Origin: Motilimonas eburnea
Lineage (GTDB): Bacteria > Pseudomonadota > Gammaproteobacteria > Enterobacterales > CBDFNC01
Direction of reading: 5' to 3'
DNA length: 64,000 bases
Assembly: GCF_021295345.1 (NCBI RefSeq)
Contig: NZ_JAIMJB010000001.1
Span: 62,001-126,000, forward strand
In this document: positions 11,353 to 38,997 of the stretch, piece by piece
Layout: each line of letters starts with the position of its first letter
Position numbering within the stretch: the first letter of the stretch is position 1
The notes under the pieces: generated by a model
Databases searched by the model: none
Told to the model about the DNA's origin: nothing
Seen by the model: only the letters and a program-made list of their open reading frames with translations
Position numbers and translations under genes: made by a program

Positions 11353-11574
11353 AGATTTTAACCAGTAAAGGGTTTCCGTAGAGAGACTCGGTTTTAATCA
11401 ATAAATAAATACCCATAGGGCGAGTTTTGTAAGCTGTTATGCCTTATTGCTGATTTTCAACGTAGAATTACTATGTCTCAAATCAGCCGCCTAACAGCCG
11501 TCAAATTCTCGCTGAACCTGCACCTCTGGGGTAACTTGGGTATTAAGCTCATTGAGAAGTACAACGGGAGCTGT

Positions 11575-12957
11575 ATGATCAAACCTATTTCCTCATATAA
11601 ACAAGAGGGGATGGCGACCTTAATGATCACCATCTTACTCATGCTAAGTGCCACCGCATTTAGCTTTTACACCGCCAAGAACAAGCTATTTGAAATTCGT
11701 GCATCGAGTAATGATTATCGTTACAAAGAAGCCTATGCCAATGCTGAGCTTGGTTTAGATTATGCCGGAACCTGGCTGGCCTTTGGCAAAGTGGATGTAG
11801 GTGGCAAGCAGCAGCCTGCTGCCATGTCATTTTTGAACAAAACCAGTGATGAGCCACTCAGTATGAATATTGGCTCAAGCTCCCACCCTGGTACCCAGAA
11901 ATTTATTAACTTCTTTGCTTCCAACCAAGTTGAAGTCGTCGTCAAGCAGAGCCCTAAGAACCCAAAACTGCTTAATGTGATCAGTACTGGCCGCTCCCGT
12001 GATGGTCAGGCACAAGCGACCGTCAGTCGTGAGTTTTATTTTTCGGGTAATGCCAATAATGGCGGTAACGGCATTCCGTTAGCGCCGATTACGACCAATA
12101 CACAAACGTTAATTGAAGGAGCTGTTTCATTAGCCAGTAACCCTAAAGCCTTTTCCGATCAAGAATTAAGTTATTGGAGTAGCTTTCATGCTCTGCAATT
12201 AGCCGGTAACTGGTTCAGCTACAGTAACGATGGTTTTGCTGATTTATCTAAGTTTGAAAATACCCTTGAGGCCGGTGATGCCACCCTTGAAAATGAGTTA
12301 GGTTGGTATAGTGCCGATACCCTAGCAGGATTTCCTGATGGCAAAGGGGGGGAAGAGACCTTTGCAAATAATGATATTTCATTGGCGGATCCGCGTTTCC
12401 CTGAAAGTTTAAAATCGGAATACTTAGGCGTAGAAGAGGCTGACTTTGCTAATTTACGCAATGAAGTGGCGCAGCGTGCGGCTGAGGGCGAAGAAGGCAT
12501 TATTTTTGTTGAACCCAATGAACTGGGGGTCTGTGAAGTCCCCCCTGGTGGCGAGGGCGAGAAGGTCGTGTGGATTTACGGTGATTGCCCAATCCATGTC
12601 GGTGGCATTGATGGTGCTGGCTATAACGCAGGCTTAACCACAGATGCTGTCACTTTGATCATTGATGGCAACGCGGATTTTCGCGGCGGAGCTTCAATTA
12701 ATGGTTTAGTTTATGTCGTTAATAGTAATAAAGAAACGCAAAACAGTGCGGCAATTAATGCCAAATTTGGCGGCTCCATCAGTGTGAAAGGCGCCATGAT
12801 AGTGGATGGGGTTAATCATGGTGTGGTGTTAACCTCTGGCTCTATTGTAGTGGACTACAGTGCAGAAGTGCTGCGATCTCTCTCGGGAGTGAGCAAGAAC
12901 ACAGGCAGTAGTCGTTTTGGTTGGGTGCCTGGCACCTGGCGAGATTTTAGCGAGTAA
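11575..12957 (+). CDS. PilX-type minor pilin with long C-terminal beta-rich region
   Basis: A 460-residue protein with a PilX N-terminus. The start at 11575 has CGGGAG five bases upstream. The first residues (MIKPISSYKQEGMATLMIT) give the short leader and hydrophobic helix of PilX/GspK proteins, followed by YRYKEAYANAELGLDYAGTWLA, typical of that helix. An in-frame ATG at 11473 would add 34 residues before the prepilin signal and is unlikely. The protein is more than twice the size of Pseudomonas PilX (about 190 residues). Its last 130 residues are Gly/Val-rich (AVTLIIDGNADFRGGASINGLVYVV) and look like a repetitive beta structure. Two cysteines occur near residue 320 (GVCEVP, YGDCP). Confidence 0.8.
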   Translation: MIKPISSYKQEGMATLMITILLMLSATAFSFYTAKNKLFEIRASSNDYRYKEAYANAELGLDYAGTWLAFGKVDVGGKQQPAAMSFLNKTSDEPLSMNIGSSSHPGTQKFINFFASNQVEVVVKQSPKNPKLLNVISTGRSRDGQAQATVSREFYFSGNANNGGNGIPLAPITTNTQTLIEGAVSLASNPKAFSDQELSYWSSFHALQLAGNWFSYSNDGFADLSKFENTLEAGDATLENELGWYSADTLAGFPDGKGGEETFANNDISLADPRFPESLKSEYLGVEEADFANLRNEVAQRAAEGEEGIIFVEPNELGVCEVPPGGEGEKVVWIYGDCPIHVGGIDGAGYNAGLTTDAVTLIIDGNADFRGGASINGLVYVVNSNKETQNSAAINAKFGGSISVKGAMIVDGVNHGVVLTSGSIVVDYSAEVLRSLSGVSKNTGSSRFGWVPGTWRDFSE

Positions 12958-23382: not shown

Positions 23383-23994
23383 ATGGATTTATTTAGTCAA
23401 CAAGAGGGTTTAGCGCGAATTGAACTGACCGATGGTGAGCTTCTAGTACAACCGCATTTTTATTGTGCTAGTCGATGCAGGGCGCTCTTTACATCACTTG
23501 AGCAACTGAATTGGCAGCAGCAAGCGATTCAAATGTTTGGTAAGTCTGTGATGCAACCCAGGCTGCAATTTTGGTGCGGCGATAAGCCCTACACCTATTC
23601 TGGCCTAACCTTACCCGCCACTCCTTGGCCGCGTATTTTGCTGGCTATCAAGTCGGAAATTGAGCAAGTCAGTGGCTATCAATTTAACAGTGTATTGGGC
23701 AACTTGTATCGCGATGGGCAAGATTATATGGGCTGGCACAGTGATGATGAGCCAGAGCTGGGCAGTTGTCCTGTTATCGCTTCATTGAGTTTGGGGCAAA
23801 CAAGGCGGTTTTTAATGCGCCATAAACAAACGGGAGAGAAGCATGAGTTTGCATTGGGCGATGGCTGTTTGCTGATCATGGCTGGCGCGACCCAACATCA
23901 CTGGTTGCATCAGATTGCGAAAACCCAGCGTCAATGTGAGCCCCGGATTAATCTCACTTTTCGGTATATACCCAATCAACCTGGAGATGCTTGA
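23383..23994 (+). CDS. AlkB-family 2-oxoglutarate dioxygenase with element-derived C-terminus
   Basis: DNA alkylation repair dioxygenase of the ALKBH2/3-like class (203 residues). It would remove methyl groups from 1-methyladenine and 3-methylcytosine using Fe(II) and 2-oxoglutarate. The iron ligands are His119 and Asp121 in WHSDDE and His176 in HHWLHQ. The 2-oxoglutarate-binding arginines are Arg188 and Arg194 in PRINLTFR. The nucleotide-flip region NLYRDGQDYMGWH is normal. The last eight residues (IPNQPGDA) and the stop codon are encoded by the left terminal repeat of a MITE-like element beginning at about 23967, so the native end has been replaced. The catalytic core is complete and the enzyme may still work. 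Confidence 0.92.
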   Translation: MDLFSQQEGLARIELTDGELLVQPHFYCASRCRALFTSLEQLNWQQQAIQMFGKSVMQPRLQFWCGDKPYTYSGLTLPATPWPRILLAIKSEIEQVSGYQFNSVLGNLYRDGQDYMGWHSDDEPELGSCPVIASLSLGQTRRFLMRHKQTGEKHEFALGDGCLLIMAGATQHHWLHQIAKTQRQCEPRINLTFRYIPNQPGDA

Positions 23995-24110
23995 TTTCAG
24001 CAAGCGTTTACAGGCGTTTAGGCAAGGCATTGATTGCAGGTAATGGTTGTTCCCTTATCAAAATCAATAACGCGCCATAAACGCCTGTAAAACTTGCCCT
24101 TTGGGAGCGC

Positions 24111-24144
24111 CTCCGTGCTTCCACTACCTCCGTGCTTCCACTAC
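24111..24144 (+). repeat. 17-bp tandem duplication inside MITE copy 1
   Basis: CTCCGTGCTTCCACTAC occurs twice head to tail. Copy 2 of the element has the segment only once, with two substitutions, so the duplication is specific to copy 1. Confidence 0.9.
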
Positions 24145-24194
24145 GTTGTTACGCTAATTTAGAAGGTGCCTAAATTCCTGCATTAGCGTGCCTA

Positions 24195-24498
24195 GGGCCT
24201 GTTGATCTTTGATGGTTGATTTTTGTTCGAGTGGGAGACACCCTGTCTAAAAGCGTTTTGGGCAAGGCGAGCAGTGTGAAGCTTAGCATTCTAAGTAAAT
24301 ACTGCTCAACGACGAACAGAATGCTTACGCCCGAAGGGCTTTAGCCGAATCCGTAGGACAGCGTTTGTTGGTCATTTCTACTGCGTTAGCGCCTTTTCGC
24401 GTAGATGACTATGCCACAAAGCCGCTGCCCACAACGATTGTTTGGTATTAATACCCTACAAATCGCTGCAAAAACCAGCACGAAAGATCAACAGGCCC
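24195..24498. mobile_element. second MITE-like element (304 bp) inserted in copy 1, TA-flanked
   Basis: A 304-bp non-coding element with inverted ends GGGCCTGTTGATCTTT, extending imperfectly for about 30 bp. It is bounded by TA on both sides (24193-24194 and 24499-24500). The uninterrupted site in MITE copy 2 reads GCCTAGTATTG, so a single TA was duplicated. TA duplication suggests mobilisation by an IS630/Tc1-mariner-type transposase, supplied in trans; this is inference. No ORF of note lies inside. Confidence 0.87.
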
Positions 24499-24554
24499 TA
24501 GTACTGAAAGCACGGTGGCAATCTGAAACATGCATCTTCCAGTAGATTGGGTAG

Positions 24555-24717
24555 GTAGACTGAGTATTGCCAGCGACCTACTCGGTTCGCTGGCAAGTCC
24601 ACCACTTGATTTGCTTCATGTTTTTTTGCTGACTTGGTTGTTTCATCTTTTTTTTAGATTAGTATTGTCAACTTGTTAATCTTGTTACCAATTTGAAATA
24701 ATTCAGGGAAGAACTCG
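24555..24717. other. intergenic region before the TRAP genes, with stem-loop
   Basis: A perfect 10-bp inverted repeat (TTGCCAGCGA at 24567-24576, complement 24587-24596) lies just after the MITE, followed by T-rich sequence and the leader of the TRAP operon. It could end transcription from the alkB side, but the U-tract is distant. Confidence 0.4.
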
Positions 24718-25275
24718 TTGAAACAATCAAGCACAGTGTCCGCAATGCGCAAGCTTGCACTTGCGATAAGCAGAAGCTCAGACTGGCTAGGCAATGGGCT
24801 GGCGTGGTTGTTGTTGTTAATGGTTCTGGTGATGTTAACCGTGGTGCTGCTGCGCTATGGTTTTGATTATGGCTCGATCGGACTACAAGAGTCGACACTT
24901 TACCTCCATGCTCTGACCTTCATGCTTGGGGCGGGCTATACCTTGAAGTTTGATGATCATGTTCGAGTGGATGTGTTCTATCGTAACTTTGCACCCCGAA
25001 CTAAAGCTTGGGTCGATATCTTTGGCTTTCTCTTTTTATTGTTACCTGTTTGCCTGTTTTTGTTCTTTAGTAGTTGGGACTATGTCATCGGCTCTTGGCT
25101 GCTACTCGAGGGCAGCCCAGAGCCTGGTGGTTTGCCCTTGGTGTTTATCCTTAAAACAAATTTGTTATTAATGCCTATGCTGCTGTTATTGCAAGGCATT
25201 GCTCAAACCTTGATTCATGTTCTTACGCTGCTGGGCCTGCCTATGGAGCAGCCTGCCGATGAGGTGCTGTTGTAA
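24718..25275 (+). CDS. dctQ: TRAP transporter small permease (DctQ)
   Basis: Small membrane subunit of a tripartite ATP-independent periplasmic transporter (185 residues, four membrane spans). The TTG start at 24718 has AGGGA nine bases upstream; an in-frame ATG at 24745 is the alternative and would remove nine residues. Family features are WLLLLMVLVMLTVVLLRYGFDYGSIGLQE in the first span and GAGYTLKFDDHVRVDVFYRNF in the loop after the second. It overlaps dctM by one base (TAATG). The binding-protein gene follows dctM. Confidence 0.9.
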   Translation: MKQSSTVSAMRKLALAISRSSDWLGNGLAWLLLLMVLVMLTVVLLRYGFDYGSIGLQESTLYLHALTFMLGAGYTLKFDDHVRVDVFYRNFAPRTKAWVDIFGFLFLLLPVCLFLFFSSWDYVIGSWLLLEGSPEPGGLPLVFILKTNLLLMPMLLLLQGIAQTLIHVLTLLGLPMEQPADEVLL

Positions 25276-26654
25276 TGGAATATATCTCTTTGGTGATGTT
25301 TGCAGTTGTATGTTTGGTCCTGATGGCAGGTTACCCGGTTGCGTTTTCTCTGGCGGGAACCGCGTTATTGTTTGCCAGTGTCGGTATCATTACAGGCACA
25401 TTCGATGGCAGCTATTTAGGCGCCTTGCCAAACCGCATCTTTGGCATCATGAACAACCAAACGCTTTTAGCCGTGCCACTATTCGTACTGATGGGGGTGA
25501 TGTTAGAAAAGTCGCAAGTGGCGGAAAAATTGTTGACCTCAATGGGACAGTTGATGGGGCGGGTAAAAGGTGGCTTGGCCATTGCTGTGGTGATGGTGGG
25601 GATGCTATTGGCTGCCAGTACCGGCATTGTGGGGGCTACGGTGGTCACTATGGGGTTGTTGTCACTACCCACCATGCTAAAGCGGGGTTACAAAGCCAGC
25701 TTTGCCACCGGCACCATTTGCGCAACGGGGACCTTAGGTCAGATTATCCCTCCTTCTATCGCCCTCGTATTGCTAGGCGATGTATTGTCGAGTGCTTATC
25801 AACAAGCACAAATGAAAATGGGGATCTTTTCTCCTGACACGGTGTCGGTGGGCGATCTGTTTGCCGGTGCTATTGTCCCAGGATTAATCTTAGTGTGTTG
25901 CTATCTGTTATATGTGTTTTTCATGAGTTGGCTCAGTAAAGACACCATTAATCAAGATCTATCGGAGCAAGATTTAGATAGCGAGCCGCTACTTAAAGTC
26001 GCATTGTTTAAGGCATTAGTGCCGCCTTTACTGCTTATTATTGCGGTTTTAGGCTCTATTTTACTGGGTTTAGCGACGCCCACTGAAGCGGCTGGCGTGG
26101 GTGCTTTTGGTGCGAGCCTATTAGCTTTTACGCAAGGTAAAATGAACAAACAAGTGATGGCGGAGGTGGTGCAATCAACCCTAAAAATCACCTGTATGGT
26201 GTTTATGATTTTGATTGGCGCTTCGGTGTTTTCATTGGTTTTTCGCGGTTTTGGTGGCGAAGACTTGATCCACGAGATGTTTACTAATATGCCGGGTGGA
26301 CCCGTTGGAGCCATGTTAGTGGTCATGCTAGTGGTGTTTTTATTGGGCTTTATTTTAGATTTTATCGAGATCACCTTCGTGGTGGTGCCGATAGTTGGCC
26401 CCGTATTATTAGCGATGGGCTTTGATCCGGTTTGGCTTGGCATCATGTTTGCGGTCAACCTACAAACGTCGTTTTTAACACCGCCTTTTGGCTTTGCTTT
26501 ATTTTATTTGCGAGGCGTGGCGCCGGCGACGGTGCCCACTCGGGAAATATACAAAGGGGTCGCCCCATATATTGCTATCCAAGTTTTGGTGCTAATTGCT
26601 ATCGCTATCTGGCCACAACTGGTCACTTGGTTGCCAGATCAAATATATAATTAA
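25275..26654 (+). CDS. dctM: TRAP transporter large permease (DctM)
   Basis: Large membrane subunit (459 residues) of the TRAP importer, which moves substrate together with sodium ions. It has about 12-14 spans. Typical stretches are AGYPVAFSLAGTALLFA, the re-entrant region STGIVGATVVTMGLLSLPTML, TGTICATGTLGQIIPPSIALVLLGD, ATPTEAAGVGAFGA and LQTSFLTPPFGFALFYLRGV, all strongly conserved in DctM. Nothing is missing. The gene is coupled to dctQ; the binding protein gene starts 120 bp downstream behind three 12-bp iterons. Confidence 0.94.
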   Translation: MEYISLVMFAVVCLVLMAGYPVAFSLAGTALLFASVGIITGTFDGSYLGALPNRIFGIMNNQTLLAVPLFVLMGVMLEKSQVAEKLLTSMGQLMGRVKGGLAIAVVMVGMLLAASTGIVGATVVTMGLLSLPTMLKRGYKASFATGTICATGTLGQIIPPSIALVLLGDVLSSAYQQAQMKMGIFSPDTVSVGDLFAGAIVPGLILVCCYLLYVFFMSWLSKDTINQDLSEQDLDSEPLLKVALFKALVPPLLLIIAVLGSILLGLATPTEAAGVGAFGASLLAFTQGKMNKQVMAEVVQSTLKITCMVFMILIGASVFSLVFRGFGGEDLIHEMFTNMPGGPVGAMLVVMLVVFLLGFILDFIEITFVVVPIVGPVLLAMGFDPVWLGIMFAVNLQTSFLTPPFGFALFYLRGVAPATVPTREIYKGVAPYIAIQVLVLIAIAIWPQLVTWLPDQIYN

Positions 26655-38576: not shown

Positions 38577-38997
38577 TTTGTGTTAGCAAGTAGAATGCGC
38601 CCATTATAGGGTAAGGTAGGAGAATGAATAAAGTATCATCTACTAAAAGGGCTAATCTTAGTTGTTTATATTTGGCGCTGAGGCATAAATGAACAGGACG
38701 TCTTGATTAGACGCCCTGTTATATACCCAATCAACCTGGAGATGCTTGATTTCAGCAAGAATTTACAGGCGTTTAGGCAAGGCATTGATTGCAGGTAATG
38801 GTTGTTCCCTTATCAAAATCAATAACGCGGCATAAACGCCTGTAAAATTTGCCCTTTGGGAGCGCCACCGTACTTCCACTACGCTGTTACGCTCATTTAG
38901 AAGGTGTCTACATTCCTGCATTAGCGTGCCTAGTATTGAAAGCACGGTGGCGCTCTGAAACATGCATCTTCAAGTAGATAGGGTATAGAAAGTAAGG
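38577..38997. other. intergenic region between the chemoreceptor and pepD
   Basis: This 421-bp stretch holds MITE copy 2 (38722-38987) and about 145 bp of pepD upstream sequence without a convincing promoter. A 66-codon frame inside the element is not regarded as a gene. Confidence 0.6.
38722..38987. mobile_element. MITE-like element copy 2, intact (266 bp)
   Basis: Uninterrupted copy of the element at 23967. Left end TATACCCAATCAACCTGG, right end the complement of TATACCCTATCTACTTGA, so the terminal repeats are about 24 bp with few mismatches. Internal inverted arms (TTTACAGGCGTTTA at 38762-38775, complement at 38833-38846) are conserved. It is flanked by TA. There is no transposase, so a related full-length element elsewhere would be needed for movement. 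Confidence 0.88.

Follow-up and report, generated by a model that had tools for sequence, protein, structure and literature searches.

Nested miniature elements of Motilimonas eburnea and a covarying hairpin module found beneath varied ends

Nested insertion and copies of the two elements

The window analysed here is a 64,000-nucleotide stretch of Motilimonas eburnea (C11:62001-126000 of a draft genome in 71 contigs, G000). It contains an AlkB-like open reading frame at 23383-23994 (PF13532, matched to residue 194 of 203), the end of which falls inside a small repeat that supplies the last eight or nine residues and the stop codon. This repeat (outer copy 1) is itself split by a second, inner element, and an uninterrupted outer copy 2 lies further along the same window. 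The initial annotation had described the nesting and proposed outer copy 2 as a clean empty-site reference; the intact copy at 38722-38987 does serve as such, and comparison with it returned exactly the coordinates that had been given for the inner element. The features of the nested insertion are as follows.

23967-24194, + strand: outer copy 1, left part (by comparison with outer copy 2)
24193-24194, no strand: left TA of the target duplication (by comparison with the unbroken CCTAGTATTG of outer copy 2)
24195-24498, + strand: inner element, 304 bp, in the longest of its family's length classes (262/277/290/304 bp); multicopy, with constant ends
24195-24210, + strand: inner left terminal repeat GGGCCTGTTGATCTTT, resembling the ends of IS5-family elements
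24483-24498, - strand: inner right terminal repeat AAAGATCAACAGGCCC, likewise resembling IS5-family ends
24499-24500, no strand: right TA of the target duplication (by comparison with outer copy 2)
24499-24555, + strand: outer copy 1, right part (right end approximate, the final two bases having diverged)
38722-38987, + strand: outer copy 2, uninterrupted, 262 bp plus TA on each side

Once the flanking TA on each side is excluded, the outer element proper is 262 bp long and reads TACCC...GGGTA. The insertion site of the inner element is CTAG, located on the 3' side of the second arm of the predicted outer fold (see below), and this arm of outer copy 1 is split as a result (24193-24500). Outer copy 1 also carries a 17-bp CTCCGTGCTTCCACTAC in tandem duplicate (24111-24144), which is present singly, with differences, in outer copy 2.

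Both elements are multicopy. In G000 the inner element was matched at least 40 times, one match being partial (scoring covered 40 of the 59 candidates from a first look), and the inner terminal pattern was found 56 times forward and 54 times reverse at ≤3 mismatches (2 and 0 for a reversed control). TA flanked both sides in 27 of 30 fetched inner copies (exceptions L015, L017, and L023), in agreement with the TA duplication originally read from the window at 24193-24194 and 24499-24500. The outer element had 46 matches, of which many were fragmentary; full-length copies (262-266 bp) comprised outer copy 2 and eight others, and the 304-bp segment was present in none of these nine. Because the inner element is multicopy, TA-flanked, and missing from 9/9 full-length outer copies, we regard the 304-bp segment as a later insertion with constant boundaries. 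The proposed order of insertion (inner after outer) therefore holds, and these copies speak against a native origin of the segment within the outer element. The genome-wide searches also answered the concern that copies might differ in their boundaries: those of the inner family were constant, at several lengths.

Inner copies were of four approximate lengths (262, 277, 290, and 304 bp), and the same classes were seen in other families of the order; the matched length of 69 aligned copies was 258-304 bp, too short for a transposase. The steps of ~14 bp come from extra blocks at separate sites (L001-L030, L160), and in L160 two such blocks lie on either side of one stem and are paired in the predicted fold. 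Shortened outer derivatives were also seen (L060, L057, L041, L047), some of less than ~60 bp and roughly equivalent to two ends joined. Inner matches occurred in three of the four genomes of the genus; the remaining genome (G002) had neither an inner nor an outer match. In the congener G003, inner-type copies were located at contig ends (L067-L070, L072, L074), fitting recent, near-identical copies. With regard to genomic setting, none of 30 inner copies lay within an open reading frame in a simple scan (≥80 aa) that is blind to gene-splitting insertions, and the flanking genes were convergent in 12 cases, tandem in 15, and divergent in 3.

Ends of the inner element and a candidate helper

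A congener (G001) has two copies of an 884-bp element encoding a 253-aa transposase of the IS5 family (NCBIfam NF033580, E=4e-78; Pfam PF13340 and PF01609, DDE_Tnp_1). We take this element to belong to the IS427-like group. Its terminal 34 bp match those of the inner element at 27/34 positions (left with left) and 28/34 (right with right), with 15/16 in the outer 16 bases; the best of 9000 34-mers sampled from the window reached 20/34. The end comparison covered 11 of 30 transposase loci, including L085 and L086, with one copy represented twice (L086 is L099), and YTA was found on both sides in 10/10 distinct copies (picked from the 30 loci for clear ends). More distant relatives shared fewer end bases (down to 16/34), and both ends lay within three mismatches of an 18-base end query in 19/30 fetched transposase loci. 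IS5-family elements (NF033580 transpos_IS5_3) thus resemble the inner element in their ends (TA|GGGNNTGTTGATCTTT), in YTA on both sides, and in TA duplication, but the copies examined differ in being 851-884 bp long and encoding a transposase; L085 and L086, both from the congener, also differ in having no hairpin module (no R1 match at E≤0.01; the model is described below).

These ends bear directly on the helper suggested in the initial annotation. An IS630/Tc1-type transposase would account for the TA duplication, but the terminal 34 bp and the YTA flanks instead point to the IS5-family element of the congener, and we consider that an IS630/Tc1-type enzyme very improbably moved the inner element. 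That candidate was displaced by the match to the IS5-family ends. An autonomous IS with the same terminal repeats, which the annotation had recommended looking for, was indeed found, albeit in the congener; G000 gave none.

The inner element has several properties of an IS5-family MITE, namely IS-like terminal repeats, a TA duplication, and a length too short for a transposase. A helper IS in the same genome, also expected of such MITEs, is present in G001 and had 0 instances in G000, where searches of the draft assembly gave 0 proteins with PF13340 and 0 at E≤1e-40. Across the order, the transposase was detected at E≤1e-40 in 26 of 295 genomes, and inner and outer matches in 70/295 and 44/295, respectively (E≤0.001, counting partial matches and scoring two candidates in each genome). 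Transposase and inner match occurred together in 7/295 genomes, with a chance expectation of 26 x 70 / 295 = 6.2. This co-occurrence is about what chance gives and counts against the helper reading. Nonetheless, judging from the ends and flanks, we infer that the inner family was most likely mobilised in trans by an IS5-family-type transposase into mostly (C/T)TA(A/G) sites.

A predicted double hairpin common to both families

The predicted folds of the inner and outer elements follow the same plan, in which a terminal stem is followed by arm 1, a mini-hairpin (CCC-NNN-GGG), and arm 2; the arms are ~98 nt each and appear to be a single hairpin module repeated in inverted orientation. Compared with shuffled sequences, the predicted fold of each window element is much more stable (z=-8.2 for outer copy 2 as DNA; z=-7.5 for the inner element as RNA). 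The inner alignment (A1) used 20 of 28 short-class copies, drawn from the 69 aligned, and 35 of its 89 predicted pairs showed double-sided compensation. For the outer element, 58 of 88 predicted pairs did so in an alignment (A2) of 16 of 25 delimited elements, five more of the 30 loci being without a pair of ends. The sequence of the stems varies freely with pairing kept; an internal loop (CAAGGC / AACGC) is conserved, as is the apical segment AATGGTNNTTCCCTT in most members.

To compare the families we used two covariance models, R1, made from arm 1 of the 16 outer elements only, and R2, made from 119 modules; their E-values are rough. R1 recovered both arms on opposite strands in 20/22 inner loci (E 1.3e-16 to 2.5e-3, mostly over 98/98 positions) and a single arm in the other two (L164 and L177). 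Both arms were likewise recovered (E≤0.01) in 24/25 further inner loci of the window's own genome, with one arm in L005. Within the outer family itself, R1 found arm 2 on the opposite strand in 5/9 loci; neither outer copy of the window had an R1 match in arm 2. Matches in the window were distributed as follows.

24000-24097, + strand: outer copy 1, arm 1 module (R1 E=6.4e-25)
24251-24326, + strand (sense): inner arm 1, module core, model positions 12-88 (R1 E=1.3e-5; R2 E=1.6e-8)
24359-24468, - strand: inner arm 2, inverted module (R1 E=2.9e-4; R2 E=2.5e-5)
38755-38852, + strand: outer copy 2, arm 1 module (R1 E=2.4e-27)
38860-38955, - strand: outer copy 2, arm 2, inverted module (R2 E=2e-13; no R1 match)
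11410-11542, - strand: third, one-armed element with TACCC/GGGTA ends, from sequence and fold (R1 11420-11512, E=1.1e-12)

The one-armed element carries the module once, is of ERIC-like size, and has no clear flanking TA.

As modelled, the inner and outer families have one folded double-hairpin body under entirely different ends. The initial view of two non-autonomous families was supported, but the families are not independent; this common body had been overlooked.

Across the class, R1 matched 89 of 369 genomes, representing 69/272 genera (E≤1e-4; at most 11 candidates scored per genome), and a sequence pattern of the module recovered at least 120 stretches in named genomes. Hosts among the matches listed included Pseudomonas, Stutzerimonas, Azotobacter, Shewanella, Cognaticolwellia, Thiotrichales, and others; also among those listed were metagenome-assembled genomes labelled Nitrosomonas, Hydrogenophilaceae, Aquificaceae, and Bacteroidetes, which may be misbinned. 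The pattern was found once in viral contigs (L336), with a full-length R1 match. Two adjacent inverted modules, mostly 7 nt apart, occurred in 19/29 class loci; the other ten had one module or a distant second, some of them at contig ends. In the named loci (covariance-model scans covered 30 and 58 of the 120), spacing was mostly 7-9 nt and in a few cases 23-69.

The ends of these elements were diverse. In 54 elements compared by eye (18 + 36), the two ends of an element matched each other in most cases, and ends differed widely between elements (e.g., GGGNCTGTTG.., GGGGCTGTTCTCAAT.., GTACTCC.., GTGTAG.., GTGGGCC.., TATACCC.., and more). G615, a genome in one contig, held 27 module matches with at least two end types. 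For one G615 element with TAGTACTCC ends, no larger element with these ends was found, nor did the ends occur elsewhere in G615 at ≤3 mismatches.

Selection on the folded strand and comparison with known repeats

To evaluate pairing in a larger set, we fitted 119 modules (E≤1e-7, both arms, sense reading) to the RNA model (alignment A4). Pairing was kept in 94.7% of 4094 cells, compared with 55.4% in shuffled alignments, and the covariation score was 0.956, compared with 0.210 for shuffled and 0.089-0.129 for slid alignments. Double changes were seen in 34 of 35 pairs, the remaining pair departing by unpaired cells only. Two of the five measures were near the shuffles (34 vs. 32.0 double-change pairs; 136 vs. 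133.6 pair types).

Strand counts in A4 gave G.U:A.C = 220:40, a ratio that overstates the bias, since an RNA model, with a prior in favour of G.U, had selected the modules. Since A4 had been fitted to the model, we realigned 111 of the 119 modules (length 92-102) without structure and counted only pairs predicted on both strands. The excess persisted roughly threefold on one strand (231 G.U vs. 76 A.C), although the picking of modules by the RNA model may inflate this ratio as well. Per column, 23 pairs favoured G.U, 10 favoured A.C, and 2 neither. A pooled test on A2 (44 vs. 38) is uninformative because its two arms are inverted, and per-arm tests on the small A1 and A2 alignments were weak and mixed, with inner arm 2 in the opposite direction (6 vs. 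10). The strand bias is therefore clear in the large module set only, and we state it without a P value, the module sequences being related.

Given the one-strand excess of G.U, the sense strand seems to be under constraint to fold when single-stranded. The selected form seems to be such a strand, probably RNA, which fits best; G.T in single-stranded DNA gives the same signal as G.U in RNA, and the two cannot be told apart here.

It is possible that the fold acts as DNA, with hairpins extruded from single strands as the substrate of a structure-recognising recombinase (cf. REP/REPIN or attC) and the TA-flanked ends being secondary. REPINs have two hairpin arms, and the two inverted hairpins described here resemble their layout; G.T pairs in DNA could also yield the observed bias. 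The constant boundaries, TA duplication, and IS5-type ends fit a DDE transposase instead, and we consider action as DNA unlikely.

A more conventional possibility is that both elements are ordinary MITEs, i.e., each an IS derivative with an internal deletion, whose folding follows from its inverted repeats without being selected, the symmetry being maintained by template switching (quasi-palindrome correction). The inner ends do match an IS, and long stem-loops are common in MITEs (PMC2229807, PMC10969869). Such correction should also have removed the loops that stay unpaired and conserved, and it leaves unexplained a module that is common to families with unrelated ends and present in 69/272 genera, as well as an excess of G.U over A.C on one strand. 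We therefore judge ordinary MITEs an improbable explanation.

The reading that we prefer, to which we give a probability of roughly 0.7, is that of double-hairpin MITEs built on one plan, with interchangeable ends, an IS5-type helper for the inner family, and a hairpin selected as RNA or single-stranded DNA. Both elements would be small non-autonomous DNA transposons in which a terminal inverted-repeat stem closes two ~98-nt imperfect hairpins. Their ends would be interchangeable, with the inner family using those of an IS5-family element and the outer family TATACCC ends. The module would be present once per strand in two-armed elements and, being on either strand, would let any strand that is read or exposed offer one correctly folded hairpin. 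The nesting, the copies, the TA duplication, the common fold with its covariation and strand bias, and the variety of ends are observed, whereas we infer the helper, an action at the RNA level, and what the hairpin does; it might fold or shield transcripts running across an insertion or bring them to an end, or it might bind a factor of the host or of transposition. A broader suggestion, which we put forward tentatively and at slightly less than even odds, is that the class-wide module is the real selfish or functional unit, usually present twice and inverted, that rides many unrelated transposon ends as a cargo outliving any one transposase and gives a folded RNA in either reading direction.

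MITEs with stable folds are already known (PMC2229807, PMC10969869, PMC4133298), and we file this module as a variant of MITE-like elements. Bacterial MITEs are usually described by their ends, as decayed IS elements; here the conserved part is the body. The covarying double hairpin can offer a concrete, testable module for the old question of an RNA-level role of such repeats, and scattered MITE families could be grouped by their cargo.

Several known repeats were compared with these elements. ERIC and RU-1 of enterobacteria are short and intergenic like the outer element, with TATAC..GTATA ends of which the right one looks alike by eye (L215), but ERIC is ~127 bp long (PMC2229807) and has one arm. 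The same family was rejected for ERIC on one E. coli locus, which was matched neither by R1 nor by R2 at E<1, and blastn of the outer element against E. coli gave no match at E≤10. TIMEs, which are Tn3-derived miniature elements, resemble the present ones in their 262-bp constant size, conserved core stretches, and similar predicted folds, and differ in Tn3-type 38-bp ends and 5-6 bp duplications (PMC4133298). Identity with TIMEs, suggested by the 262-bp size, was set aside on plasmid pQKH54 (L337), which had no R1 match and whose repeat at 12288-12550, taken to be its TIME, differs in its ends; the TIME and ERIC comparisons each rest on one record. CIR elements are composed of two arms and a linker (PMC2229807), and both they and REPINs are like our elements in having two hairpin arms. 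REPINs differ in their REP hairpins of 20-40 bp and GTAG/CGTC tags compared with the ~98-nt arms and DDE-type ends found here.

Rfam 15 gave 0 hits at gathering thresholds in the window (one sub-threshold hit, E=0.16, lay outside the elements), and a search of 12 class loci gave none at E≤0.1. Searches of freely available journal papers gave nothing that we recognised as this module. The descriptions of the R178/R200 repeats of P. fluorescens (PMC2718517) and an Azotobacter paper (PMC4465626) led to no identification of the element, and PMC4383904 and PMC4666352 held nothing bearing on it. Among plasmids, searches with two class elements returned 2 records and 0 records, and blastn of 23401-25300 gave partial matches in eight records, six from Pseudoalteromonas and two from Vibrio.
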